Assembly (NCBI GenBank): GCA_036397855.1
Contig: DASWID010000024.1
Coordinates: forward strand, 1-57,355
Direction: 5' to 3'
Length of the DNA stretch: 57,355 nucleotides
Origin: Thermodesulfobacteriota bacterium
GTDB lineage: Bacteria > Desulfobacterota_D > UBA1144 > Nemesobacterales > CSP1-2
Positions within the stretch are counted from its first letter, which is position 1. Each line of letters begins with the position of its first letter. The position numbers were made by a program, and so were the translations under genes. Below the pieces are notes generated by a model that was not told the DNA's origin, searched no databases, and saw nothing but the letters and a program-made list of their open reading frames with translations. Positions 928 to 57,355 of the stretch are shown one piece after another.

Positions 928-1251
928 TATGTACACGGTGCGTGGTGGATCGTTCCACACTACATCGTGCCTTGAAGCGGTACTACACCATATAACGCCT
1001 GTATTTTATTCGTTCCCCATGCTTTTTCAAACGACACAGCAACAGCGGTCTTTCTGGATGCGGTTCTAACGCCGCCGTCATCCTTTGCAATGATGAATTT
1101 TCCCCTGGTTTCGGCATTCCATCGCGAAAACAAAATTCTATGCAAACCCTGACGATACCGGCGTGTGGACGAACGCATGAAAGATCGCAGTGGTTGCGGT
1201 CTGAGATTAAAAAGGAGTGAGACCGATGAAAAAATACTAAGTTTAAAATAC
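928..1251. other. gene-free stretch after the antitoxin
   Basis: Composition is still relatively GC-rich up to about 1200, and then turns AT-rich. Open frames on the minus strand here look like no family I recognise and have no ribosome binding site. Probably decayed flank of the mobile segment. Confidence 0.4.
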
Positions 1252-1472
1252 TAAAGGCAACCCTTTGTTTACAATGTAATATTACCGATTGACTTCCTTT
1301 CGGCCACCGGTCTGAAATTCATCCCAACATCTTTTTCAAATTCATAATGACTTCATCAGAACCGCGATCCTTTCATCGTGTTTCTAGTTAATAATGCGAC
1401 TTTCTTAGGTTGCTTACTGTCGGCTGGGTATAAATATAAAGTTTGGCCCCAAAACGGGTTGCATCCCCTTTA
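1252..1472 (+). mobile_element. TIR-bearing repeat, copy 1 (MITE-like)
   Basis: The left end contains TAAAGGCAACCCTTT and the right end CGGGTTGCATCCCCTTTA, which are imperfect inverted repeats of each other. The interior matches copies at 2671, 5449 and 6860, with shared blocks such as CATCGTGTTTCTAGTTAATA, CGACTTTCTTAGGTTG and ACTGTCGGCTGGGTATAAA. No open frame is carried. It ends about 136 bases before bioB and points the same way. Size and termini suggest a miniature inverted-repeat element mobilised by a transposase encoded elsewhere. Confidence 0.65.
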
Positions 1473-1608
1473 CTTATGAGGCGTTGGAGTTTTGATTTTA
1501 TGATCGAAGTTTTTTTAATTATTGAGAGATGTAAAAACGGCTGTCTCTAAGTTAACATATATGCGTTAAAGAAATTTAAGTGGGAGTGTTACTGCAGGTG
1601 GAGGAAAA

Positions 1609-2598
1609 ATGAGCGGAGAAATAATACAGTTTGTAAGGAAAAAACTACTGGACAACAAAGAGCCTATAACTTTTGATGAGGCTTACGGACTAGCTCTTCT
1701 TGGCGAGGAGCACCTACTTGACCTGGTCAGTCTTTCTTATAAGGTTATGGGGGAATATAAGGAAAAAGCTATCCATTTGTGTGCCATTATAAGTGCAAAA
1801 ACGGGGAATTGTCCTGAGGACTGCGCTTTTTGTGCCCAATCCATTCACAGTGAGGCACCAATGTCTGTTTCCTCAATTATCGATCCCTCTCTTATACTCA
1901 AGTCAGCAAAAGAGGCCGAAAAGTCTGGAGCCACTGAGTTTTGTATTGTAACAAGTGGTAAGGGACCGGACAAAAAAACCTTTAGAAAGGTTATCGATGC
2001 TGTCGATCTAATCCACCGCTATACCAATCTTAGTATCGGATGTTCCCTTGGGATATTAACAGAAGAACAAGCAACACTTCTTTCGAAAGCAGGAGTAAAC
2101 CGCTATAATCATAATCTTGAAACATCGCGAAGCTTCTTTCCTCATATTTGTACTACTCACAGCTATGAAGAACGTGTTAAGACTGCAACTTTGGTGAAGG
2201 AAAAAGGAATGGAGCTATGTTGCGGGGGGATCCTGGGCATGGGAGAATCACGTGAACAAAGAGTTGAGCTTGCCTTTGAACTTCGAGATCTCGATCCTGC
2301 TTTAGTGCCTATAAACTTTCTTAATCCACGTCCTGGAACTGCTTTAGCTACGAAGTCTCCACTCACACCGATCGAAGCGATAAAAAGTATAGCCCTATTT
2401 AGGCTTATCCTTCCGCAAAGTATTCTAATATGTGCAGGAGGAAGAGAGGTTGTCCTTAGAGAACTTCAGCCTTTGGCTTTGCTTGCCGGTGCCAACGGCC
2501 TGATAACGGGGAATTATCTTACAACACAAGGACGTTCAACCGAAGAAGACTTGCAGATGCTTAGGGATTTAAATATGCCTACGGTGAAACTTAACTGA
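1609..2598 (+). CDS. bioB: biotin synthase
   Basis: BioB converts dethiobiotin to biotin by radical SAM chemistry, inserting sulfur taken from its own iron-sulfur cluster. The 329-residue length is normal. The radical SAM cluster motif is complete (C68, C72 and C75 in GNCPEDCAFCAQS), and downstream cysteines (IGCSLG, ELCCGG) and the late PRPGT segment fit the [2Fe-2S] site. The ATG is preceded by a clear GGAGG ribosome binding site (GTGGAGGAAAA). No other bio genes are adjacent, so it stands alone, flanked by two copies of the TIR-bearing repeat; the upstream copy may supply its promoter (inference). A hairpin terminator follows the stop directly. No BirA-type operator was seen. Confidence 0.97.
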   Translation: MSGEIIQFVRKKLLDNKEPITFDEAYGLALLGEEHLLDLVSLSYKVMGEYKEKAIHLCAIISAKTGNCPEDCAFCAQSIHSEAPMSVSSIIDPSLILKSAKEAEKSGATEFCIVTSGKGPDKKTFRKVIDAVDLIHRYTNLSIGCSLGILTEEQATLLSKAGVNRYNHNLETSRSFFPHICTTHSYEERVKTATLVKEKGMELCCGGILGMGESREQRVELAFELRDLDPALVPINFLNPRPGTALATKSPLTPIEAIKSIALFRLILPQSILICAGGREVVLRELQPLALLAGANGLITGNYLTTQGRSTEEDLQMLRDLNMPTVKLN

Positions 2599-2654
2599 AA
2601 AATAGGTGGAAGATCGGGAGCGAATGGGTTTCTCTGTCTCGGCCTCCTATTTTA
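2599..2654 (+). terminator. putative rho-independent terminator of bioB
   Basis: Arms AAAATAGGTGG (2599-2609) and CCTCCTATTTT (2643-2653) pair with a single mismatch and the second arm ends in a T run. The loop is long (33 bases), so efficiency is uncertain. Confidence 0.55.
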
Positions 2655-2670
2655 TTAGAAGATTCATAAA

Positions 2671-2898
2671 TTAAAGGGGATGCAACCCTTTAATTAGAAT
2701 TTAATTTCCCCCGTTGGAGGCCCCTTCGGCCTTTAATATACTGTTTGTACTACGATCTTTTCAATTCCAGAATTAATTCATCGGAACTGCAGAACAATTT
2801 TTTCACTTTGTTTCTCGTTAATAGTTCTGCTTTCTGAGGTTGATTATTATCGGTCGGGCATATATATAAGATTTAGCACCAAAAAGGGTTGCCTTTAA
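2671..2898 (+). mobile_element. TIR-bearing repeat, copy 2 (MITE-like)
   Basis: The left terminus AAAGGGGATGCAACCCTTT is the exact reverse complement of the idealised right end; the right terminus here (AAAAAGGGTTGCCTTTAAGG) has drifted. The core shares CAGAATTAATTCATCGGAAC with copy 3 and TTTCTCGTTAATA with copies 1 and 4. It lies between bioB and the phosphodiesterase-like gene, ending about 78 bases before the latter. Confidence 0.65.
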
Positions 2899-2975
2899 GG
2901 TGTAAATGACAGTGTAACCCCTCTACTCTTGAATTATTTGTATTTTGTATGAGACTTAGATATCGGGGTTAAGCT

Positions 2976-4199
2976 TTGAATAAAATGCTTGTGTGTTTTA
3001 TCGACGGATTTGATTTTAACAGGATAAACCCGGAAACAACCCCTTTTCTAGCAATATCCCTAAAAAAATATCCCTTTGCGAGAATTTCTGCTAATCCATG
3101 TACGGATCACTTACCCACATTACTGACCGGAAAACATCCTCACGAGCATGAGATATTTGATGTAATTCTTAGCAATAATAAAAAGAAAAATAATTTGTTA
3201 ATAAAATTTTTTCAGCTTTTGCCAGATCTTGTAACGACATCACTTCAATGTTTTTTGTATTTAATATCAGCTTCTTTTGATCTGCCTACGATACCTCCTG
3301 ATAGAAGAGAGCTATTCCAGATCATGAGAACTAAGACCTATAAACAAAAAAATAAATATGATAACTTAGTTAAAATTGGCAATTCTGAAACGATTTTTAA
3401 TATTGTCGGAAAAGAGCAATGCCGTTATTTATTCACACATTCTACTGACTTAAACCAAAAAATTCTCCCAAAGATTGGGAGAGGAGATTACACTCTTGAG
3501 TTAGTAGAAGTCTACAGTGTTGATATTGCTCAGATGTGGAATATGGATAAGGCTTCTAAGATCAACAGTTATTACAAAGAAATTGATCTTTTTATAAATA
3601 ACTTACATAAGAAGTGTCTTGGTAATGGTACTAAATTGATTTTAATATCAGATCATGGTTACGACAAGGTTGTTGGAACTATAGATATTTTGAGTTATAT
3701 GAGAGACTTAAATATTCGCGAAGATGAATTTACTTACTTTGTGCAATTTCCAATGGCGAGATTCTGGTTCAATGATAATATCACAAGGATTAAAGCATCG
3801 GAATTTTTTCATGGCATTAATAATATGAAATCCTTTGCTTGGCAGGAATTAAAAGAATTCGATCTCGTTTTACAAGATTCCCGATATGGTGAAATATTCT
3901 GCATGGCAAAACGCGGTTATATTTTTTTCCCGAATGACTTTGTTCAACCGATGGCAGATCTTTTTTTAGGATTAGTTGATAAAGAACAGAGGCCTCGGCT
4001 GTTCGACTCAAGACATAAAGGTAGCCACACATTTCTTAGAGAGTTTGATTCATCAAGAGGTTTTCTCATAATATTTGACGATAAATATAAGGCCTTAAAT
4101 TCAAACATTAAAATGGTGGATGTTGCACCATCCTTGCTAAAAATTCTAGGCTATAGAATTCCTGACAGCATGAATGGCAAACCAGCATTTAATATCTGA
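2976..4199 (+). CDS. alkaline-phosphatase-superfamily phosphodiesterase-like protein
   Basis: The 407-residue product resembles nucleotide pyrophosphatase/phosphodiesterases, which cleave phosphodiesters with a threonine nucleophile and two metals. Visible are the first metal aspartate (FIDGFD, near residue 10), the nucleophile block LPTLLTGKHPHEHE (about 47-60), the ISDHGYD metal pair (about 225-231) and a late GSHTF histidine. The usual DxxxH site reads DIAQM, so that histidine has become methionine. No signal peptide is seen. A paralogue of the same length is at 24304. Start chosen is TTG, nine bases upstream of an in-frame ATG, since GGGG lies at workable spacing. Substrate unknown; a role with the glycan locus 10 kb away is only suggested by the paralogue. 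Confidence 0.7.
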   Translation: MNKMLVCFIDGFDFNRINPETTPFLAISLKKYPFARISANPCTDHLPTLLTGKHPHEHEIFDVILSNNKKKNNLLIKFFQLLPDLVTTSLQCFLYLISASFDLPTIPPDRRELFQIMRTKTYKQKNKYDNLVKIGNSETIFNIVGKEQCRYLFTHSTDLNQKILPKIGRGDYTLELVEVYSVDIAQMWNMDKASKINSYYKEIDLFINNLHKKCLGNGTKLILISDHGYDKVVGTIDILSYMRDLNIREDEFTYFVQFPMARFWFNDNITRIKASEFFHGINNMKSFAWQELKEFDLVLQDSRYGEIFCMAKRGYIFFPNDFVQPMADLFLGLVDKEQRPRLFDSRHKGSHTFLREFDSSRGFLIIFDDKYKALNSNIKMVDVAPSLLKILGYRIPDSMNGKPAFNI

Positions 4200-4840
4200 T
4201 TTTGGGTCTTGACTAGTTGCGCGGTATCAAAGAAGCTAAGATGCCAGAAATCAGTTCGGGGTCACGCATGCATATTGACTTATAACGTGCAGAGTGGCGG
4301 AAACTGAGCTCTGGTGTTAGCCCCAAAAAGAAAAATTGATTGTGTCATTCGATGCTAGGCCGTTACTCAAACCCATATATGCACACAATCTTATTCGTGA
4401 CCAATGTTATGTCACAATAAATTCAATAAATTAGGAAATCGATTTTATGAGAATTTCTGTTTTAGAGTCTGGAAAAACAAATTAAGGAACTGGCCGATGA
4501 AATATGAGGTAGCAGATATGTCGTTTTAAACCTTCTTCATAGCAACGCCCCTCAGGATTGAATATCCGGGTGACTTTATGGCATAACGAGCAGAGAGGAA
4601 GAAACGATATGGATAGGGACGGACGATTCTACTTTCGGAAATGTATATACCAGTCTAGATGGGGAGATGAATAAAGCTAGGAGGTTAAATAGGCTTGTCG
4701 GGGAGATTAGGTCTCAATTCAGGGCTTTAACCTTTCTTATTTTCAGTTCAGACATTATTCCTTAATATTCTGTAATTCATAAGAAACATGCTTGAAGAGC
4801 TAATCTATCATGACCATATTAATATTCAGGAGTAAAAGCC
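4200..4840. other. 641-base gap, no gene recognised
   Basis: Both strands are broken by frequent stops and no RNA gene is evident. A segment near 4505-4545 (GATATGTCGTTTTAAACCTTC) loosely resembles 5153-5185, so a further weak repeat may exist. Confidence 0.35.
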
Positions 4841-5125
4841 ATGAGAAAGTTCTTATTATTAATGTTTCTTGTTCTCTTATTCGCAGTGCCCGCGATGGGG
4901 CGCGATACTCATCGTTTCAATCGTCACTTCAACCCTTATTATCAACACCACTACTATCCCCGTTATCGCTACTATCAGTACCCCCCTTCTTTCTATTTTA
5001 ATTATGCAGTGCCCTATCCTTATATTTACCAATACCCCTATATATATCCCACATATCCCTATATCTATCCCTATCCATACTACACTCCATATCCGTACTT
5101 CAACTTCGGCATCATAATTAGATAA
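4841..5125 (+). CDS. small secreted tyrosine/proline-rich protein
   Basis: The 94-residue product starts with a classical signal peptide (MRKFLLLMFLVLLFAVPAMG, cleavage likely after AMG). The remainder is dominated by tyrosine, proline and histidine: about the last 60 residues are runs such as YRYYQYPPS and PYIYPYPYYTPYPY. I do not recognise a family. Such composition is known from export-targeted structural or surface-coating peptides, and tyrosines could cross-link or bind metals, but no function can be assigned. The ATG has a good ribosome binding site (AGGAGT, seven bases away), which favours a real gene in spite of the low-complexity sequence. Two overlapping frames also stay open here because of the repetitive codons; the signal peptide and ribosome site select this one. 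Confidence 0.65.
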   Translation: MRKFLLLMFLVLLFAVPAMGRDTHRFNRHFNPYYQHHYYPRYRYYQYPPSFYFNYAVPYPYIYQYPYIYPTYPYIYPYPYYTPYPYFNFGIIIR

Positions 5126-5448
5126 TTTCTGCTGTCAGGACTGGAAATAGGAAATATGTAACCGCGTTTTAACCTTCATCTACTTGTAGTTTGACGAGTC
5201 TCTTTTGTTAAATACTGAGACGGGATGCGATCAATTTTACGCGTCTTACTTCAATTTTGTTATTACTGAACGAAATATCCTTGGGGTGGGATCTTTAGGT
5301 GTCTTGCTCAAAGGTATTTTAATCACTTCCAGTTAGCAGCCCTTTAAAACCCAATTAGGTGTTACATAGATTTTCAATCTGATGAACGAAAGTAATGGTA
5401 AGATGCAGCTCCGTTCATTGTTTTTTTCTTTAACGCCCCTAAAATAAA

Positions 5449-5678
5449 TTAAAGGGCAACCCTCTGTATTTAGAATTTGATTTCCCCTTTGGGCATCCTT
5501 GCGACCGGTAATGTAATATGCGCATTACCATCTTTTCAATTTCAGAATTAATTCATCGGAACTGCACTGCAATCCCTTCACTGTGTTTTTCATTAATAAT
5601 TGGACTTTCTAGGGTTGATTACTGTCGGCTGGGTATATGTATAAAGTTTAGCGCGAAAAAGGTTTGCGTTCCCTTTAA
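5449..5678 (+). mobile_element. TIR-bearing repeat, copy 3 (MITE-like)
   Basis: Left end TTAAAGGGCAACCC, right end GGTTTGCGTTCCCTTTAA. The interior is closest to copy 2 on the left side (TAGAATTTGATTTCCCC, CAGAATTAATTCATCGGAAC) and to copy 1 on the right (ACTGTCGGCTGGGTATA). It ends about 114 bases upstream of cdd. Confidence 0.65.
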
Positions 5679-5792
5679 TCCTTATACGTTTCTTATCAAA
5701 TGAGCAGAATCAATTTGGATGTCCCTTAATGTTTACTGAGTAATTATTATGCTATATTATGAGACTTATATATAATCGATTGGGTCAGAACC

Positions 5793-6221
5793 TTGGAGAT
5801 TTCTAAAGACCTTTCGTCGGATGAACGGACTAAACTTCTACAGGTAGCCCGTGAAGCTTTAAAGAACGCGTATGCTCCGTATTCAGAGCTTCGAGTAGGT
5901 GCGGCGGTTTTAACTGAAAAGGAGAATATATTCTCTGGGTGTAACATCGAGAACGCTTCATATGGCCTCACTATCTGCGCTGAGCGCACGGCAATCTTTT
6001 CTGCTGTTGCAAAAGAAGGCGGAGATAACATGAAGATCCGAGCGATTTGTGTTGTGAACGATAAAGATAGTACCTGTTCCCCCTGCGGCGCATGCAGACA
6101 GGTAATCTACGAGTTTGGGCCAAATGCGATTGTTATCTTTAGAGGCCGTGATGGGCTGGTAAGCGCGCATGCTACTGAGCTTTTGCCGGATGGCTTCGTT
6201 TCTTACCATCGATCAAATTGA
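5793..6221 (+). CDS. cdd: cytidine deaminase
   Basis: Cdd deaminates cytidine and deoxycytidine to uridine compounds in pyrimidine salvage. The 142-residue size fits the short homotetrameric type. The zinc site is complete: C62-A-E64 (the glutamate is the proton shuttle) and PCGAC with C98 and C101. The substrate-binding NIENASYG block is at 51-58. The start is a TTG; no strong ribosome binding site precedes it. The sequence TATGAGACTTA at about 5757 recurs upstream of the phosphodiesterase-like gene (2949), also after a copy of the TIR repeat, which hints at shared promoter sequence. It stands alone, not with deoA/udp or era. Confidence 0.93.
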   Translation: MEISKDLSSDERTKLLQVAREALKNAYAPYSELRVGAAVLTEKENIFSGCNIENASYGLTICAERTAIFSAVAKEGGDNMKIRAICVVNDKDSTCSPCGACRQVIYEFGPNAIVIFRGRDGLVSAHATELLPDGFVSYHRSN

Positions 6222-6366
6222 TAGAAATTAATACGAACAACAGGCACTAATTACAGGTTATCAAGACGACAAAATTATATATTTAATTGGTGTGTGTCAC
6301 CAGTTATTTAAAAATATAAAACGAGACTCTGATTGAATTTGGAAGAGTCGGGAGGAAATTGTTGTG

Positions 6367-6681
6367 ATGATAGCAAGATGGCAGATACGGGCGAGATTCG
6401 GACATAAAGAGGCGGCTTTGGATTCCATGAAAAGATGGATTAAAGAAGTCGGGTCCCAAATAGGCTGGACTCCGGATAGGGTCAGAGTAATTACCGGTTC
6501 TATAGGAGCGTATGAATCGACTATTGAGACCGAGATAATGATCGAGGATTTAAAAGAGCTCGATGATGCCTGGAGCAAATTAGCGAAACTTTCTCCGCAC
6601 AAAAAATGGGGACAGGAGTTCGAAAAGCTGATTGTTTCTGGAACGGCACGCTGGGAGATATTCAGGGTAGTATCCGATTAA
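6367..6681 (+). CDS. conserved small protein, dimeric alpha/beta-barrel type
   Basis: A protein of about 104 residues that resembles a family of short conserved bacterial proteins with a ferredoxin-like, NIPSNAP-type dimeric alpha/beta-barrel look: an N-terminal strand (IARWQIRARFGHK), a central GWTPDRVRVITGSIGA stretch and the end GTARWEIFRVV. Function unknown; related folds bind small ligands or catalyse simple monooxygenase steps, but no catalytic residue can be pointed to. The ATG at 6367 was preferred to the GTG one codon earlier; both are served by GGGAGGAA at 6349-6356. It is a single gene, with the next copy of the repeat following within 180 bases. Confidence 0.7.
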   Translation: MIARWQIRARFGHKEAALDSMKRWIKEVGSQIGWTPDRVRVITGSIGAYESTIETEIMIEDLKELDDAWSKLAKLSPHKKWGQEFEKLIVSGTARWEIFRVVSD

Positions 6682-6859
6682 TTATATCTTTCGTCCGGAC
6701 TATACGATGCCTGTTATGTATGTTTCATAAAGGATTGAATAACACCACTTTGACCGTATGCCTTACAGTGGAAAGTTATTCTTCCAGCGAATGGAAGAGT
6801 ATTTTAGAAAACATGCATTGGCATGCTCCCCCTTATTATTTACCTCTGCAGTGCCTCGG

Positions 6860-7035
6860 TTAAATAGCAGGGAAAAGTCGGTTTGTGGTCCAGAACGCGA
6901 TCATAAAATCATATGAACGTAAGAATGATTCTATCGCGAGATTCAATGGTTTCATTGTGTTTCTCGATAATATTCGGACTTTCTGAGGTAGTGTACTGTG
7001 GATATATGAGGTTTGCTGCGGCTTCCCCTTTATAT
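6860..7035 (+). mobile_element. degenerate copy 4 of the TIR-bearing repeat
   Basis: The right half is clear (TTTCATTGTGTTTCTCGATA, CGGACTTTCTGAGGT, GTTTGCTGCGGCTTCCCCTTTA); the left end is barely recognisable. Shorter than the other copies because of internal losses. Confidence 0.5.
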
Positions 7036-7387: not shown

Positions 7388-8074
7388 ATGATGGGTTTTC
7401 ATTTAATAACATTTCTAATAGTTCTACAGCTACCTTCTACTTTTTCCAATTCTTCACAAAAAGAAATTGATAACGTGTCAACTGCTTGCTCAAATCCATC
7501 TGATTGTAAAATATATCTGGCTCAAAATAATTCCACCGAATCATCAGTGGATATGCGTGAAGCGAAACCAATAGAGGAGGTCTCGGAAAAGTTAGAGTCT
7601 GTTTCGAATCCACTTGGGAAGGCTTCGGAATCCATTGAATCGATTTCAAAGCCTATAGAATCATTATCGAAACCCCTTGAGTCAGTTTCGGAACCTCTGA
7701 GCTCAGTCTCGAAGCCGCTTGGCTCTGTTTCAAAGCCAGTCGATTCGTACCTCCAACCAGTTGATTCACTTAACAACTCTCAGGAATCCGAATCAGAAAT
7801 TGAAGAAGGAAAAGAAGAATTGGGAGGCTTGGGGGTTAAGTCTGTTCAGGGTGAAAAAGGGGAAATGGTAAAAGAACCATCGGCAGTTGAAGAAAAGTAT
7901 AATTCGTCAGATTCCGAGGAGAGTCTTGAAGAACTGTTTAAAGGAAGTGAGAACGTTGATGTAATAGAACAGCATTACGATAGGATAAAGGGCACAGGGG
8001 GGACTTATTGCAAGTGGACGGATGAGAATGGAATGATTCACATTGAATCTGGCGAGAAGTGTACAAGGGAATAG
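7388..8074 (+). CDS. secreted protein with serine-proline heptad repeats
   Basis: The 228-residue product has a hydrophobic N-terminus (MGFHLITFLIVLQLPSTFS) typical of a signal peptide. Residues about 65-125 form around nine tandem seven-residue units of the pattern [L/I/V]-x-S-[V/I/L]-S-[K/E/N]-P, for example IESISKP, LESVSEP, LGSVSKP. An acidic segment follows, and the C-terminus ends with a cysteine-bracketed CKWTDENGMIHIESGEKC, similar to the short DUF4124-type motif (KWxDExGxxH). The repeat arm might be an extended spacer or a glycosylated region (serine-rich); this is inference. No homologue is recognised for the whole protein, and no operon partner is visible. ATG at 7388 or the next ATG at 7391 could be the start. 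Confidence 0.65.
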   Translation: MMGFHLITFLIVLQLPSTFSNSSQKEIDNVSTACSNPSDCKIYLAQNNSTESSVDMREAKPIEEVSEKLESVSNPLGKASESIESISKPIESLSKPLESVSEPLSSVSKPLGSVSKPVDSYLQPVDSLNNSQESESEIEEGKEELGGLGVKSVQGEKGEMVKEPSAVEEKYNSSDSEESLEELFKGSENVDVIEQHYDRIKGTGGTYCKWTDENGMIHIESGEKCTRE

Positions 8075-17671: not shown

Positions 17672-19351
17672 ATGAAAAGGAATTTAATCAAATTGGCTTC
17701 AAATGAATACGATCTGCTTGTGATCGGAGGTGGTATTTATGGTTCCTGTGTCGCATGGGACGCTTCTTTAAGAGGCCTTTCAGTTGCTCTGGTGGAGAAA
17801 GGAGATTTTGGCCACGCAACCTCGTTTAACACACTTAGAATAATCCATGGCGGGTTTCGTTATCTACAATCCTTAGCTGTTTTGAAGGCACGTCAATCAT
17901 TCTATGAGCAGATGGTTTTCATGAGAATCGCACCCCATCTGCTTCATCCTCTTCCAGTGCTTGTCCCAGCCTACAGACACCTGATGCAGGGGAAAGAAGC
18001 ACTTTCATTTGCGTTAAAGATTTACGATAAATTAGTTTGCAGAGCTTCTCACGAAGAATATCAACCAAGAATACCTAGGGGTCGAACCGTGACGAGAGAA
18101 GAATGTCTCGAAGCTTTCCCTGATATTGAAACGAAGGGCCTTACCGGTGGTATCATTTTTTACGATTGCCAGATTCCTAACTCGGAGCGACTGATTATTT
18201 CAATTGTAAAATCTGCTGTGGAATATGGGGCCGATTTTGCAAATTACGTTGAGGTTCAGGGCTTTTTAAAAACTAAAAGTCGGATAGAGGGTGTAAAGGT
18301 AAAGGACCTAATTACGGGGGATGAATTTACAGTTCGGGCAAGGTTTATTGTAAATACGGCCGGACCCTGGCTCCAAAGAATTTTGGGACTTCTCGAAAGG
18401 AAGGATTTTCAAAATAATTGTCGGTGGCTTTCAAAGGCCTTCAATTTAGTTGTAAAGCGCAAATTTCACAATGATTTCGGACTAGGGATTTATTGCCAAG
18501 CCCAAAACCATAAGACTTCACAATTATTGGGCAAAAGATCACGTTATTTATTCATCACACCGTGGAATAATTATTCCTTGATTGGTACTGAGCATCTACC
18601 ATTTGAAGATAATCCGGATAACTTATCCATTACTGAAGATGAGATGACAAACTTTCTCAGGGAGATCAATGAAGCCTGTCCGCAGGCATCATTGGGATTA
18701 GAGGATGTGCGCTTTGTATATAAGGGATGCCTTCCCACTATTCCAACAAACAGAGGTTCGTTACATCTTGCCTCGAAATACCGGATATACGACCATGGAA
18801 GGGACCAGGGTTTAGAAAGGTTTCTATCGGTAAGTGGAGTAAAATTTACGGAAGCAAGACACGTTGCGGAGAAAGTGGTAGACCTTGTTTTCAGTAAGTT
18901 AAATAAGAAACCGCTAAGATCTCGTACATCGGTAACCCCTGTCTATGGCGGCAAGCTCCAGTGGTTTAACGAATTCTTAAAACAAGAGACTAGTCGTAAT
19001 CTCTATAAATTAGATACTATTGATATTGAAAGACTTATCTCAAATTATGGTTCAGCATATACCGAAGTACTCAAATATCTTGAGAATGGTGAGGAATCGG
19101 AATCACTACATTCCAGTGATTTAATTCGGAAGTCCGAGATTTTACATGCGATTCACGAAGAGATGGCTCAAAAGCTAGGCGATTTTGTTTTTCGTCGTAC
19201 TGATTTGGATATTGGCGACCAAATTAATTGTGAAGATATAACGACATGTGCCAAAATAATGGCTCAAGAGTTAAATTGGAGTAGCGGTAAAATCAAAGAA
19301 GAGGTAGGTGAAGTAACAACTGTATTGTCTTCATTAAACTTGAATGGATAA
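17672..19351 (+). CDS. GlpD-like FAD-dependent dehydrogenase (intact copy)
   Basis: A 559-residue flavoprotein of the glycerol-3-phosphate dehydrogenase/DAO family. The FAD-binding Rossmann motif VIGGGIYGSCVAWDA is at about 17-31, followed by ALVEKGDFGHATSF and IHGGFRYLQSL, which align with GlpD. The C-terminal DAO_C-like helical domain is present (EILHAIHEEMAQKLGDFVFRRTDL). GlpD oxidises sn-glycerol 3-phosphate to dihydroxyacetone phosphate at the membrane and passes electrons to quinone. No glpF or glpK is nearby; instead the gene sits among glycan enzymes, so it may act on a related polyol phosphate or supply a precursor (inference). Its stop overlaps the next gene by eight bases. A broken paralogue is at 22019. 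Confidence 0.87.
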   Translation: MKRNLIKLASNEYDLLVIGGGIYGSCVAWDASLRGLSVALVEKGDFGHATSFNTLRIIHGGFRYLQSLAVLKARQSFYEQMVFMRIAPHLLHPLPVLVPAYRHLMQGKEALSFALKIYDKLVCRASHEEYQPRIPRGRTVTREECLEAFPDIETKGLTGGIIFYDCQIPNSERLIISIVKSAVEYGADFANYVEVQGFLKTKSRIEGVKVKDLITGDEFTVRARFIVNTAGPWLQRILGLLERKDFQNNCRWLSKAFNLVVKRKFHNDFGLGIYCQAQNHKTSQLLGKRSRYLFITPWNNYSLIGTEHLPFEDNPDNLSITEDEMTNFLREINEACPQASLGLEDVRFVYKGCLPTIPTNRGSLHLASKYRIYDHGRDQGLERFLSVSGVKFTEARHVAEKVVDLVFSKLNKKPLRSRTSVTPVYGGKLQWFNEFLKQETSRNLYKLDTIDIERLISNYGSAYTEVLKYLENGEESESLHSSDLIRKSEILHAIHEEMAQKLGDFVFRRTDLDIGDQINCEDITTCAKIMAQELNWSSGKIKEEVGEVTTVLSSLNLNG

Positions 19352-20162
19352 ACCCCAAATATATCAACAGAAGGAATATGCTAAAGGATATGACGACGAT
19401 AGATATGGTGGAGAATTTGGCCAATATTTACACGATTTGGATCTTAACACATTCTTGTCTTTAATGGATTTGTCTTACATAAATGTTCTCGATGTAGGAG
19501 CCGGCACAGGAAAAATTTCAATTCCTCTTGCTGTACAATCTCGGCATGTTGTTGCAGTTGACTCATCAGAGGAAATGATCAAAATTCTAAGCATGAAGGC
19601 AAAAAAAGGTGATGTCCAATTAGAAACCATCATTTGCGATGCCCACCGCCTTTGTTTTGATGATAAAGCATTTGATTGCGCTGTTTCTTCACGTTTATCG
19701 ATGCATTTAGACGATTGGAGAAAAGCAATCTCAGAGCTTTGTAGGATTTCCGCAGTCGCTACAATAATAGATTTTCCGCCATGCTTAAGTTTTGCTGGTT
19801 TGAGTTCAGTCCTAAGAAATATAAAGTGCTTTTTTATTCCAACTATTCAAACTTACAAGACTTTCTATATAAAAGACGTGGTTGATCAATTTCATAAACA
19901 TGATTTTGGGATCGAAGTTTCTTTTTTAGCAATGGGATGGATACGATGCGTACTTATCTTGATTTCTATGATTCCTATCTCCATTGCTGGGCTTGGAATA
20001 AGAGAGGGTTCCCTCATTCTGTTGTTAAGATCATTTGGCACCATTGATGAAGAAGGATTAGCATTTTCGCTATTGGTCTTTGCCGTAAGTGTTGTTTTGG
20101 TGGGGCTGATCGGGAGCTTGATAGGAGGAAAGAATTTATTTCGATCAAAATTTAGCCGATAG
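19344..20162 (+). CDS. fusion of a methyltransferase N-terminus to a membrane-protein tail
   Basis: The first ~188 residues match the SAM methyltransferase at 23509 (LDVGAGTGKISIPL motif I; DRYGGEFGQYLHDL). After HKHDF, at about 19905-19910, the sequence switches to SFLAMGWIRCVLI and continues as the C-terminal ~80 residues of the LPG-synthase-like protein at 25592 (SFFAMGWIRCAVV). In the second copy these two are separate genes with a phosphodiesterase gene in between. The simplest reading is a deletion that removed the phosphodiesterase gene and most of the membrane protein and joined the remains in frame. The methyltransferase part lacks its C-terminal region; activity is doubtful. The start overlaps the GlpD-like stop. 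Confidence 0.8.
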   Translation: MDKPQIYQQKEYAKGYDDDRYGGEFGQYLHDLDLNTFLSLMDLSYINVLDVGAGTGKISIPLAVQSRHVVAVDSSEEMIKILSMKAKKGDVQLETIICDAHRLCFDDKAFDCAVSSRLSMHLDDWRKAISELCRISAVATIIDFPPCLSFAGLSSVLRNIKCFFIPTIQTYKTFYIKDVVDQFHKHDFGIEVSFLAMGWIRCVLILISMIPISIAGLGIREGSLILLLRSFGTIDEEGLAFSLLVFAVSVVLVGLIGSLIGGKNLFRSKFSR

Positions 20163-22018: not shown

Positions 22019-23516
22019 TGGCGGGTTTCGCTATCTACAATCATTAGATATTCTGAAGTTACGTCAATCATTCAGGGAACAGATGGTTTTAATGAAAATT
22101 GCAGCACATCTTGTTCATCCTCTTCCAGTTTTTATCCCAGCCTATGGACATTTTATACACGGAAAAGAGATACTTTCGCTAGGATTTAAGGTGCATGATC
22201 ATCTAGTTTGCGGAGTTCCGCATGATGACGATGAACCGAAAATACCTCGGGGTGGTACTGTGTCGAGAGAAGAATGTCTCCAAACTTTTCCTGATATAGA
22301 GAGAAAACGTCTTAGTGGTGGTATCATTTCTTACGATTGCCAGCTTTCCGATTCGGAGCGGTTTATTATTTCGCTTGCCCAATCGGCTGCCAAACAAGGC
22401 GCCGATGTGGCGAATAATCTCGAGGTAATAGGTTTTATAAAAAATAAAAATCGTATTCGGGGTGCAAGGATAAAGGACATCCTTACCGGAGACGAATTTG
22501 ATTTTCGAGCAAGTTTTGTTGTCAGTACATGCGGACCCTGGCTTCAAAGTATTCTGGGACTTATTGAACAATCTCCGGAGAAGCGTTACGGGTTTTCAAA
22601 GGCCTTCGACTTAGTCGTGAAGCACAAATTTCTCAACGATATCGCAATAGGTATTCGTACCCAGATCAAGAACTATAAGACTTCAGAATTGTTGGGTAGA
22701 AGATCACGCTATCTATGTATTACTCCTTGGAAGAATTATTCCTTGATCGGGACTGAGCATCTGCCATTTGAAGATAATCCGGATAATTTATCCATTCCTG
22801 AACATGAGATTACAAACTTTCTAAGGAAGATCAGTGAAGCCTATCCGCAGGCATCGTTGGGATTAGAGGATGTACGCTTTGTGTATTAGGGATGCCTTCC
22901 AACTATTGCCGCCAAAAGAGGTTCGTTACATCTTGCCTCGAAATTCTGTATATACTACCATGGAAGGGACAAGGGTTTAGAAAGATTTCTATCGGTAAGT
23001 GGCGTAAAATTTACCGAAGCAAGACACGTTGCGGAGTAAGTTGTCGATCTTGTTTTTGCTAAGTTAAATAGGAAATTACCAAATTCTCATTCCTCAGCGA
23101 CCGCGGTATACGGGGGAGACATGGAGTGTTTCAATGATTGTATTTTGGGTGAGATTCGTAGGAAGATCTTTGGATCAAGTCCGATCGACGTGCAGAGACT
23201 TATCTCAAGCTATGGCTCCATTTATGCTGATGTTCTTGAGGGCATTGATAAACCGAGACAGTTGGGCTTTGAAAATACCAGTGAATTATTAAAGAAGGCA
23301 AAAATTTTGCATGCAATTCGTGAAGAGATGGCTCATAATCTAAGCGATGTCCTATTTCGCCGCACTGAGTTGGGTATTGACGGCCAAATTAATTGTAAAG
23401 ATATAATGACACGTGCCGAAATAATGGCGCAAGAGTTAAATTGGAGTAGCGGTAAAATCAAAGAACAGGTAGGAGAAGTAACAACAGTATTATCTTCATT
23501 AACTTTGAATGGATAA
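22019..23516 (+). pseudogene. decayed second copy of the GlpD-like gene
   Basis: The sequence follows the intact GlpD-like gene from GGFRYLQSL to the end, but roughly the first 55 codons, including the FAD-binding GGGIYGS motif, are missing. Two in-frame stops are visible: AAG of the intact copy has become TAG at 22887-22889 (VRFVY then stop), and AAA has become TAA at 23036-23038. The last third is still open (from about 23039) and ends with the same LSSL-LNG tail overlapping the next methyltransferase start by eight bases. The 5' break lies just after the AsnB-like gene, marking the junction of the old duplication. Nucleotide similarity to copy 1 remains high. Confidence 0.88.
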
Positions 23517-24237
23517 GCCCGATATATATCAGCAAGAGGATTACGCTCAAGATTATGACGAAGACAGATACGGTGGAGCATTTGGTCAATACTTACACGA
23601 TTTGGAGCTTAATACATTCTTGTCTTTAATAGATTTGTCTTACATAAATGTTCTCGATGTAGGAGCCGGCACAGGAAAACTTTCAATTCCTCTTACTATA
23701 CAATCCCGTCATGTCGTTGCAGTTGACTCTTCAGAAGAAATGATCAAAATTCTAAGAATCAAGGCGAAAAAACGTGATGTTGAATTAAAAACCATTATTT
23801 GCGATGCTAATCGCCTTTGCTTCAATGAAAAAGCGTTTGATTGCGTTGTTTCTTCACGTTTATTGATGCATTTAAAAGATTGGAGAGAAGCGATCGCAGA
23901 GCTTTGTAGAATTTCCAGGGGTGCTGCAATAATAGATTTCCCCCCATGCTTAAGCTTTGCTGGTTTGGGTTCGCTCTTAAGAAAGTTAAAACGCTTTCTT
24001 ATTCCAGATACTCAAACTTACAAGGCTTTTATTATAAGAGACGTGATTGATGAGTTTCATAAACATGATTTTGAACTGGTTGTCATAGAAAGACAATTTT
24101 TTCTACCGTATGCCTTTCACCGGTGGCTTAACCTACCCTGGCTTTCTGCTAAGATCGAGAAATTGTTTATGAGATTTGGTCTTGTGAAGCTGATTGGAGC
24201 ACCCGTTATACTGAAAGCAATAAGGAAAAATAAATAA
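23509..24237 (+). CDS. class I SAM methyltransferase (type B, intact)
   Basis: A 242-residue Rossmann methyltransferase with motif I VLDVGAGTGKLSI (about 46-58), HVVAVDSSEEM as the acidic strand-two end, and FDCVVSSRLLMHLKDW as motif IV region. Its C-terminal segment (ERQFFLPYAFHRWLNLPW) is what the copy at 19344 has lost. It begins with an ATG overlapping the remains of the GlpD-like gene and is followed 66 bases on by the phosphodiesterase-like gene. The substrate is unknown; related UbiE/COQ5-shaped proteins in glycan loci methylate sugars or lipid carriers. That the GlpD, methyltransferase, phosphodiesterase and membrane protein genes were duplicated together suggests they act in one pathway. 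Confidence 0.87.
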   Translation: MDKPDIYQQEDYAQDYDEDRYGGAFGQYLHDLELNTFLSLIDLSYINVLDVGAGTGKLSIPLTIQSRHVVAVDSSEEMIKILRIKAKKRDVELKTIICDANRLCFNEKAFDCVVSSRLLMHLKDWREAIAELCRISRGAAIIDFPPCLSFAGLGSLLRKLKRFLIPDTQTYKAFIIRDVIDEFHKHDFELVVIERQFFLPYAFHRWLNLPWLSAKIEKLFMRFGLVKLIGAPVILKAIRKNK

Positions 24238-39746: not shown

Positions 39747-39821
39747 GAGCGCGTAGCTCAGGGGGAGAGCGCTTGCTTGACGCGCAAGAGGTCGCAGGTT
39801 CAAATCCTGCCGCGCTCACCA
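39747..39821 (+). tRNA. tRNA-Val (GAC)
   Basis: Acceptor arms GAGCGCG and CGCGCTC pair completely, followed by A and an encoded CCA. The anticodon stem CTTGC/GCAAG encloses TTGACGC, giving anticodon GAC for GTC/GTT valine codons. T arm GGTTCAAATCC. The final A of CCA is also the first base of the heptanucleotide repeat. Confidence 0.96.
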
Positions 39822-39932
39822 TGCACGATGCATGATACAAGATGCACGATGCACGATACATGATGCATGATACAAGATGCACGATTCATGATAAAAATCT
39901 TTTTTTTATCGTGTATCCTGGATCCTGCATCC
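39821..39932 (+). repeat. heptanucleotide tandem and inverted repeat, copy 1
   Basis: Ten head-to-tail seven-base units of pattern AT[G/A/T]CA[C/T/A]G (ATGCACG, ATGCATG, ATACAAG and variants) run from the tRNA-Val end to 39890. After an A/T-rich turn (39891-39907), three or more units in the opposite sense follow (ATCGTGT, ATCCTGG, ATCCTGC), so the whole can fold into a long imperfect hairpin. It ends seven bases before the thrS start. Confidence 0.8.
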
Positions 39933-42610: not shown

Positions 42611-42706
42611 ACACGATCCACGATGCATGATGCAAGATTCACGATGCGGAAAAAAATAGGTTTTTATCATGGATCATGTATCGTGCATCCTGCATCTTGT
42701 ATTGAG
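42611..42706 (+). repeat. heptanucleotide tandem and inverted repeat, copy 2
   Basis: Four complete seven-base units (ATCCACG, ATGCATG, ATGCAAG, ATTCACG), preceded by a partial ACACG, are followed by a turn (GAAAAAAATAGGTTTTT) and five opposite units (ATCATGG, ATCATGT, ATCGTGC, ATCCTGC, ATCTTGT). The unit arms pair imperfectly to form a long hairpin between rpmI and rplT. Same family as 39821. Confidence 0.8.
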
Positions 42707-43083: not shown

Positions 43084-43096
43084 ATTCTCTCCACAC

Positions 43097-43160
43097 GGGT
43101 AGCTCACCAGTCTTGCTGGTGGGATGATCGATTGTCACGAGCAAGACTCGTGACCTACCC
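43097..43160 (+). repeat. 64-nt closed two-hairpin element, copy 1
   Basis: The outer arms GGGTAG and CTACCC pair. Inside are two hairpins: CACCAG/CTGGTG with loop TCTTG, and GTCACGAG/CTCGTGAC with loop CAAGA. The two five-base loops are exactly complementary. The same 64-base layout recurs at 57235. A partial copy (GGGTAGCTCACCAGC) is at about 43217. Confidence 0.75.
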
Positions 43161-43267
43161 AAGGATATTATCGGTCAATTTAAACGGGAACGCACCAGTC
43201 CCTGTTCCCCCCACACGGGTAGCTCACCAGCTGGCGGGTTATTGTGCGCATCTTGAACACGCTCAAA
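43161..43267. other. spacer shared with 57160-57234
   Basis: ATCGGTCAATTTAAACGG and a CCCCCCACACGGGTAG segment match the region before the second copy of the two-hairpin element. GCGCATCTTGAACA at 43239-43252 also recurs in inverted form at 50261-50279. Confidence 0.6.
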
Positions 43268-43347
43268 TTTCGGGACAAGAATTTCCCGACTATCCATAAT
43301 AAATGATATTGTCATGAATCACGATAGGCGGGGTTTTCGTACCCCGC
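43268..43347 (+). repeat. double-hairpin repeat (GGGAC/GCGGGG type), copy 1
   Basis: Begins TTCGGGACAAGAATTTCCCG, continues ACTATCCATAATAAATGATA and ends in the hairpin GCGGGGT-TTTCGT-ACCCCGC. Copy 2 follows at 43405, an inverted copy lies at 50181 and a cut-off copy at 57303. Confidence 0.75.
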
Positions 43348-43404
43348 ATGGAGAAAACATTTCGGACGGGATCCTTAAGGTTTCCGCTACATTTACTTCA
43401 AATT

Positions 43405-43482
43405 GCGGGACAAGAATGTCCCGACTATCCATAATAAATAACATTGTCATCAATTACGATAGGCGGGGTTTTCCTACCCCGC
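43405..43482 (+). repeat. double-hairpin repeat, copy 2
   Basis: CGGGACA/TGTCCCG around AGAA, the linker CTATCCATAATAAATAACAT, then GCGGGGT/ACCCCGC around TTTTCC-type loop. It ends six bases before the stop codon of the minus-strand glycosylase gene, so it could form that gene's 3' end. Confidence 0.75.
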
Positions 43483-43488
43483 AGGAAT

Positions 43489-49932: not shown

Positions 49933-50282
49933 AGAAATATACTATATTCTGCTTAAAATAAATTACTAGATCAAAAAAATTTAAATTGGTTGCCTGAACA
50001 CTAACCTCCATTTAAGATAACATGATACCTTAGAATGGTCTGCTGATAAATAATTCTGGTTACAAATCATTATGGTTTCCAAACCAAATGTTTAATCGAT
50101 GCGGGGTTGGAAAACCCCGCCTATCTTCCTTCGACGATGCTCAGGACAGGTCAGGTCCGCATTCCAAATGCTTTATCCATTCGGGGTTGGAAAACCCCGC
50201 CTATCGTAATTGACGACAATATTTATTATGGATAGTCGGGACATTCATGTCCCGAAATTTGAACATGTTGAAGATGCGCCTA
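49933..50282. repeat. repeat-filled gap: inverted copies of the double-hairpin repeat
   Basis: A partial unit (GCGGGGTTGGAAAACCCCGC, 50101-50120, then CTATC), the CCTTCGACGATGCTCAGGAC segment (50128-50147), and a full inverted unit at 50181-50255 (hairpin CGGGGT..ACCCCG, linker ATTTATTATGGATAG, hairpin CGGGACA/TGTCCCG). The trailing GAACATGTTGAAGATGCGCC repeats 43239-43262 in reverse. No gene. Confidence 0.75.
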
Positions 50283-57127: not shown

Positions 57128-57234
57128 CTACATTCTCGTAGGATTGGCAAAAATATATTGTCGGTCAATTTAAACGGTAGCCCACGAATCCATACCCCCC
57201 ACATCATTAGCCCACCAGTTCCTGTCCCCCCCAC

Positions 57235-57298
57235 GGGTAGCCCACCAGTCTTGCTGGTGGGACGATCCACTGTCACGAGCAAGACTCGTGACCTACCC
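57235..57298 (+). repeat. 64-nt closed two-hairpin element, copy 2
   Basis: Outer arms GGGTAG/CTACCC; inner hairpins CCCACCAG/CTGGTGGG with loop TCTTG, and GTCACGAG/CTCGTGAC with loop CAAGA. Same length (64 bases) and loops as copy 1 at 43097; changes between the two inner stems are few. Confidence 0.75.
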
Positions 57299-57302
57299 TT
57301 CA

Positions 57303-57355
57303 ATCGGGACAAAAAAGTCCCGACTATCGATAATAAATATTGTCATCAATTACGA
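57303..57355 (+). repeat. double-hairpin repeat, cut by the window end
   Basis: ATCGGGACAAAAAAGTCCCG, then ACTATCGATAATAAATATTG and the start of CATCAATTACGA. Matches 43268-43325; the GCGGGG hairpin would follow outside the window. Confidence 0.7.

Follow-up and report, generated by a model that had tools for sequence, protein, structure and literature searches.

The window analysed here, a contig stretch of 57,355 nucleotides, contains four short related repeats, each placed just 5' of a gene. Such an arrangement raises the question of whether these sequences are leaders that regulate the genes downstream or traces of mobile elements, and, if the latter, which element gave rise to them. Our comparisons suggest, with a probability of about 0.9, that the repeats are old non-autonomous deletion derivatives of a Y1 tyrosine transposase element with hairpin ends (TIR-flanked), which were copied and subsequently decayed.

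Four co-oriented repeats with uneven ends

The four repeats of the preliminary description were recovered by a profile search, all on the plus strand and co-oriented, with E-values (3e-57 to 8e-31) that follow partly by construction, because the profile was built from those same copies. The profile rests on five copies, the four in the window and a fifth on contig C69 that was picked up by plain similarity. Independent support comes from copies outside the model, on contigs C175 (6.8e-32), C23 (4.6e-24) and C128 (9.9e-24), and from the homology of the repeat to a transposon in another genome. The features of the window copies are the following.

1250..1473, plus strand: copy c1 (profile), 5' of bioB (ATG at 1609)
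2669..2898, plus strand: copy c2 (profile), between bioB and a Phosphodiest-domain gene (2976)
2673..2844, minus strand: transposase remnant in c2, a DNA match to the 3' end of the transposase gene (67%, E 1e-19)
5447..5678, plus strand: copy c3 (profile), 5' of cdd (5793)
5637..5676, minus strand: leader remnant in c3, the transposase leader and start (GCTAAACTTTATACAT...), which includes the outward TATAAA noted in the preliminary description
6858..7033, plus strand: copy c4 (profile, 103 bits), 5' of a hypothetical gene (7388-8074)

Each window copy does precede a gene on its own strand, as had been noted. The terminal inverted repeats, whose best form is AAAGGGGAYGCAACCCTTT, are also real, but they are uneven, and in the window no copy has both ends undamaged. 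The left end of c1 is degenerate (TAAAGGCAACCCTTT, 1252-1266) and its right end lies at 1453-1471. Copy c2 has a perfect left terminal repeat (2673-2691, AAAGGGGATGCAACCCTTT) and a degenerate right end (around 2883-2898), while c3 has a degenerate left end and a well-preserved right one (5658-5676). Copy c4 is the most decayed, having lost its left end and about 9 nt near the internal junction described below.

Each terminal repeat is by itself a hairpin (AAAGGG, 7 nt, CCCTTT), with no GTAG foot outside the stem. Near-matches to this hairpin are few in the host genome: eight with at most one mismatch, and 13 with at most one mismatch to a looser pattern. Inspection of the flanks by eye revealed no consistent target duplication; this absence is predicted for a Y1 element, although decay would give the same picture.

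An old family dispersed over the genome

A search of the genome and its relatives with a consensus of the repeat, proposed in the preliminary description, returned further copies in the former and parent elements in the latter. The host assembly (3.1 Mb, 195 contigs, 95.65% complete) and Candidatus Dadabacteria bacterium CSP1-2 (G003 below) are members of one family. The five-copy profile detects no fewer than eight strong copies in the host genome, plus a weak one on C17 (4e-8), whose DNA similarity to the parent is not significant. Full copies span about 225-235 bp, and partial 3'-end matches occur on C43 and C90. Two other matches were discarded: a weak one on C12, which is the 5' remnant of a full gene, and one in another genome (L021, G056), which on inspection was judged a chance match to unrelated coding sequence.

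Pairwise identity among the copies is mostly 55-77%, with lower values for C17 and in some pairs involving C128 or c4, so the copies are old. They are scattered over six contigs at unrelated sites, and their flanks are dissimilar except for one pair near a duplicated gene. A DUF5131-like gene, 91% identical between the two contigs, is found near the copies on C23 and C175, but the homology ends short of the element and the distances differ, which points, with some doubt, to separate insertions.

It is this dispersal that argues for insertion, because no empty site was found and the relatives belong to other genera, with flanks that do not align. Upstream of bioB in the nearest relative (G004, a different genus), alignment to the flanks was no better than that of shuffled sequences. 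Part of the cdd region recurs on C68 (window 5725-5996 and 6307-6718 against L141 422-693 and 854-1265, 85-89% identity), where a truncated cdd is accompanied by an apparent remnant of the repeat's right end. This remnant led us to reject C68 as an empty site and suggests that the duplication is probably later than the insertion.

Intact parents in related genomes

In relatives of the same family, matches to the profile were confined to the repeat's left part and lay next to a Y1 transposase gene or what remains of such a gene. Read in reverse, this left part is the end of the gene: the G003 protein ends in ...EPQKIKLIRRNIEKGLPCGSDEFIKRLERIAGRILQYRPQGRPREKIED, with the hairpin directly after. 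A transposase gene flanked by the same terminal repeats, which the preliminary description had suggested looking for, is present and intact in three related genomes, within elements of 734-739 bp that carry the repeat's own ends, AAAGGGGACGCAACCCTTT, in inverted orientation.

G003, contig C48, 15971-16709: intact parent, 739 bp, inverted AAAGGGGACGC(A/T)ACCCTTT ends
G005, contig C104, 26592-27328: intact parent, 737 bp, inverted AAAGGGGACGC(A/T)ACCCTTT ends
G020, contig C78, 8389-9122: intact parent, 734 bp, inverted AAAGGGGACGC(A/T)ACCCTTT ends

The first of these lies on contig LDXN01000048 of Candidatus Dadabacteria bacterium CSP1-2, which NCBI places in the class Candidatus Dadabacteria. 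The parent transposase has the Pfam domain Y1_Tnp (PF01797, 56 bits for a cutoff of 23), and both the HUH motif (NHVH) and the catalytic tyrosine (YVERNP) are readable in the protein P0001. Its score against the NCBIfam model REP_Tyr_transpos (NF047646) is 64.8 bits, under the cutoff of 80, so it is RAYT-like rather than a RAYT proper. A search by sequence among solved structures gave no match to the transposase.

Several copies of the repeat match the G003 transposase at the protein level: C128 (51% over 53 aa, E 2e-11), C175 (52%, E 1e-4) and C23 (E 3e-4). The host genome has 17 Y1_Tnp matches, none of which is an intact gene of the parental type, and truncated 5' remnants of that type occur at C12 and C160. 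Since the assembly is fragmented and 95.65% complete, an intact parental gene could be absent from the assembly only. Short forms of other sizes, bounded by the same ends, occur in the relatives: 61 and 130 bp in G020 and 67 bp in G003.

Other Y1 transposase genes in the host genome and its relatives (L086, L088, L090, L092, L102, L103 and L104) have inverted ends of different types, many with GGGGTC, near or overlapping the gene, and look like further TIRtrons (see below).

A junction shared by the copies

Read on the minus strand, a copy consists of the 5' hairpin, the leader and first codons of the Y1 transposase gene, its last 50 or so codons and the 3' hairpin. Placed on the G003 element, c1 and c3 each form two collinear blocks between which about 515 bp of the gene are absent. 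In c1 the blocks, antisense to the transposon, are 1296-1411 (64%, E 8e-9) and 1436-1471 (84%, E 5e-6); in c3 they are 5481-5630 (69%, E 4e-21) and 5637-5676 (85%, E 7e-8). The remnant at 2673..2844 of c2 corresponds to decayed C-terminal codons (from about 174 to the stop) followed by the 3' hairpin; it is antisense to the flanking genes and has its counterparts in the longer blocks of c1 and c3. In tblastn searches with P0001, c3 was 42-44% identical to the transposase, with E 3e-5 in one search and 9.5e-4 in another (window 5531-5632). Even in c4, a block at 6944-6989 matches the 3' part of the transposase gene (67%, E 0.001). The copies c2, c5 (on C69) and C128 have the layout of c1 and c3 with weaker leader blocks, especially in C128.

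All nine copies align to the G003 element once codons 4-176 or thereabouts are removed, and they have a common junction, ATGCCCGACC/GATAATAATCAACC or decayed forms of it. The leader stretch of c3 also resembles the remnants on C12 and C160 of the same genome, and these run on into the gene at the junction, which is therefore the derived state. The family thus combines the retention of both ends, the internal loss of a gene, multiple copies and a single junction, with c4 and C17 as weak members. The preliminary description had taken the repeats for MITE-like mobile elements that encode no protein. They are indeed dispersed and non-coding, in the sense that no working protein remains, but they are not parentless: the parent is a Y1 transposase element, of which the antisense strand retains a decayed fragment that had been missed.

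These observations suggest a scenario in which a deletion removed about 515 bp, roughly codons 3 to 173 and about three quarters of the gene, from an intact element of about 735 bp made of a hairpin, a transposase gene of some 226 codons and an inverted hairpin. The product would be an element of about 230 bp keeping both ends, the leader and start of the gene and its last 50 codons or so. This one shortened form may then have spread to no fewer than eight or nine sites; the presumed agent is a full-length transposase that acted on the hairpin ends in trans. Such mobilization would fit the single-strand transposition of HUH/Y1 enzymes, which leaves no target duplication. The copies would have decayed after spreading. 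One deletion with copying afterwards is the simplest account of the common junction, although separate deletions at similar places are a slight possibility for the weakest copies, because most copies are only 55-77% alike. The elements are probably inert at present, and their presence can be explained without any function.

Orientation relative to neighbouring genes

The position of the repeats relative to genes holds beyond the window, since all nine copies precede a gene in the repeat's direction (on C17, an ABC-type open frame running off the contig, judged by eye). The sites on C69 and C17 lie between divergent genes and are uninformative. The other seven agree in orientation, and a two-sided sign test gives about 0.016 for them if they are treated as independent. 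This is suggestive of a real pattern, although the sample is small.

The pattern may reflect strand-biased insertion or survival instead of regulation. The sign of the GC skew agrees with the orientation of the copies in eight of nine cases. Targeting of the lagging-strand template is a property of IS608 and ISDra2 (PMC6006769), which makes a bias linked to the replication fork a plausible non-regulatory cause. A tentative reading, of low probability, is that insertion or survival was directed by strand, such that the dead transposase always ends up antisense to the next gene, either through entry into lagging-strand templates, which would tie orientation to the replication fork, or through retention of the elements within the leaders of the genes that follow them.

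A less likely possibility, compatible with an origin as deletion derivatives, is that the elements were later retained for driving or terminating the transcription of their neighbours. The uniform placement of the nine copies and the single orientation of the seven co-directional sites are what one would expect of such exaptation. Yet all copies are decaying, and lagging-strand insertion would give an identical bias, given the agreement with GC skew. Nor does the right part of the repeat have a promoter-like site at a spacing of 16-18 nt. The outward promoter proposed in the preliminary description was rejected on these grounds: the letters TTGATT, 19 nt and TATAAA do exist, but a promoter scan at 16-18 nt spacing found no site there, and the region as a whole contains no excess of sites over chance (25 against 20.1 expected, s.d. 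4.4). The promoter-like letters are instead leftovers of the transposase gene. TTGATT is AATCAA read in antisense, at the point where the C-terminal codon remnant begins, and TATAAA is the antisense of TTTATA in the gene leader just before the ATG.

Leader RNAs and DDE-type MITEs

It is very improbable that the repeat is a conserved regulatory RNA leader, such as a riboswitch or an attenuator common to several operons. The position of every copy 5' of a gene in its direction would suit a leader, and the ends could form hairpins in RNA. However, the distance to the start codon ranges from about 60 to about 460 nt, the interior derives from a transposase, the folding of c2 as RNA is ordinary (z = -1.8), and the repeat has no Rfam match (a scan of the window gave a single, chance-level match, outside the repeat). 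The preliminary description had named this outcome as the alternative to a mobile element. Among the bioB loci fetched from relatives, whose homologues are 56-86% identical, none has the repeat upstream, not even the nearest at 86%, and the repeat is therefore not a conserved leader; a search for cdd in seven relatives gave no match.

A MITE derived from a DDE transposon (e.g., of the IS630 type) with an unrelated interior would have the same size, inverted ends, dispersed copies and lack of a working gene, but it is equally improbable in view of the collinearity of both interior and ends with a Y1 transposase element, and of flanks in which no consistent target duplication was seen by eye.

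Relation to known elements

The preliminary description knew of no named family with such ends. The literature answers this point, since the repeat can be described as an internally deleted Y1 element of the TIRtron/TIRYT kind. In the part of their paper drawn on here, Di Nocera et al. (2013; PMC3733652) gave the name TIRtrons or TIRYTs (TIR-associated tyrosine transposases) to TIR-flanked relatives of REP transposases, in which a Y1 transposase gene is closely bracketed by inverted repeats, some of them self-complementary, and for which some genomes contain moderately abundant TIR families as well as TIR dimers. The elements of G003, G005 and G020 have this organization, with the gene between terminal inverted repeats that are not GTAG REPs. 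The TIR motif here (GGGGACGC) agrees at seven of eight positions but differs by one letter from GGGGWSAS, which the same part of that paper gives as common to some TIRtrons, not all. In contrast to the TIRtrons described there, the short form keeps about 150 nt of C-terminal gene remnant together with the leader. That part of the account (PMC3733652) makes no mention of Dadabacteria, and our literature search found no named element for them.

Other known systems show partial likeness. In Haloquadratum, IS605-type elements have given rise to terminal-only derivatives, in some of which C-terminal remnants persist; these and the PATEs are transposase-free Y1-type derivatives that arose by core deletion and leave no target duplication (PMC3119063). 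PATEs are archaeal and lack terminal inverted repeats, having palindromes near their ends (PMC3119063), whereas the ends of our repeat are inverted repeats of one another. REP/RAYT systems and REPINs also associate a Y1 transposase with inverted hairpins and with dispersed, short, two-hairpin non-autonomous units (PMC2817692, PMC3116915). The present repeat, by contrast, has no GTAG-tagged hairpin at the high copy number of REPs, with only 8 to 13 close hairpin matches in the genome. Since the repeat matches TIRtrons and terminal-only IS605-type derivatives, and intact parents exist in relatives, it is of a kind already known and opens no new class of element. The result is that a repeat that looked like an orphan can now be assigned a parent and a named kind, with its ends and its junction defined, and that TIR-flanked Y1 elements are seen to yield short non-autonomous forms (61, 67, 130 and about 230 bp) in a group of bacteria that has received little study. 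This should be useful for annotation and for testing strand bias in the insertion of single-strand transposases.

Other repeats and genes in the window

A different repeat, containing GGGTAGCYCACCAGTCTTGCTGGTGGG, lies at 43091-43160 and 57229-57298 of the window, together with 43263-43488, 50065-50279 and 57155-57355. It looks like a true GTAG-tagged REP, and its hairpin is also found next to genes for REP-type tyrosine transposases at G000:C130 (194 aa; 122 bits with the NCBIfam model REP_Tyr_transpos) and C88. Short runs of a CATGATGCACGATGCA-like repeat, in both orientations, were found at 39817-39887 and 42612-42702, with a similar run on C86. Two stretches of about 1 kb (18426-19409 and 22591-23574), which are about 84% identical, are probably duplicated genes. 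At the start of the window, the apparent tail of a phage-type integrase (1-120) precedes a probable toxin-antitoxin pair (296-580 and 577-927), composed of a Gp49-like protein just below the Pfam cutoff and an HTH_37 protein.
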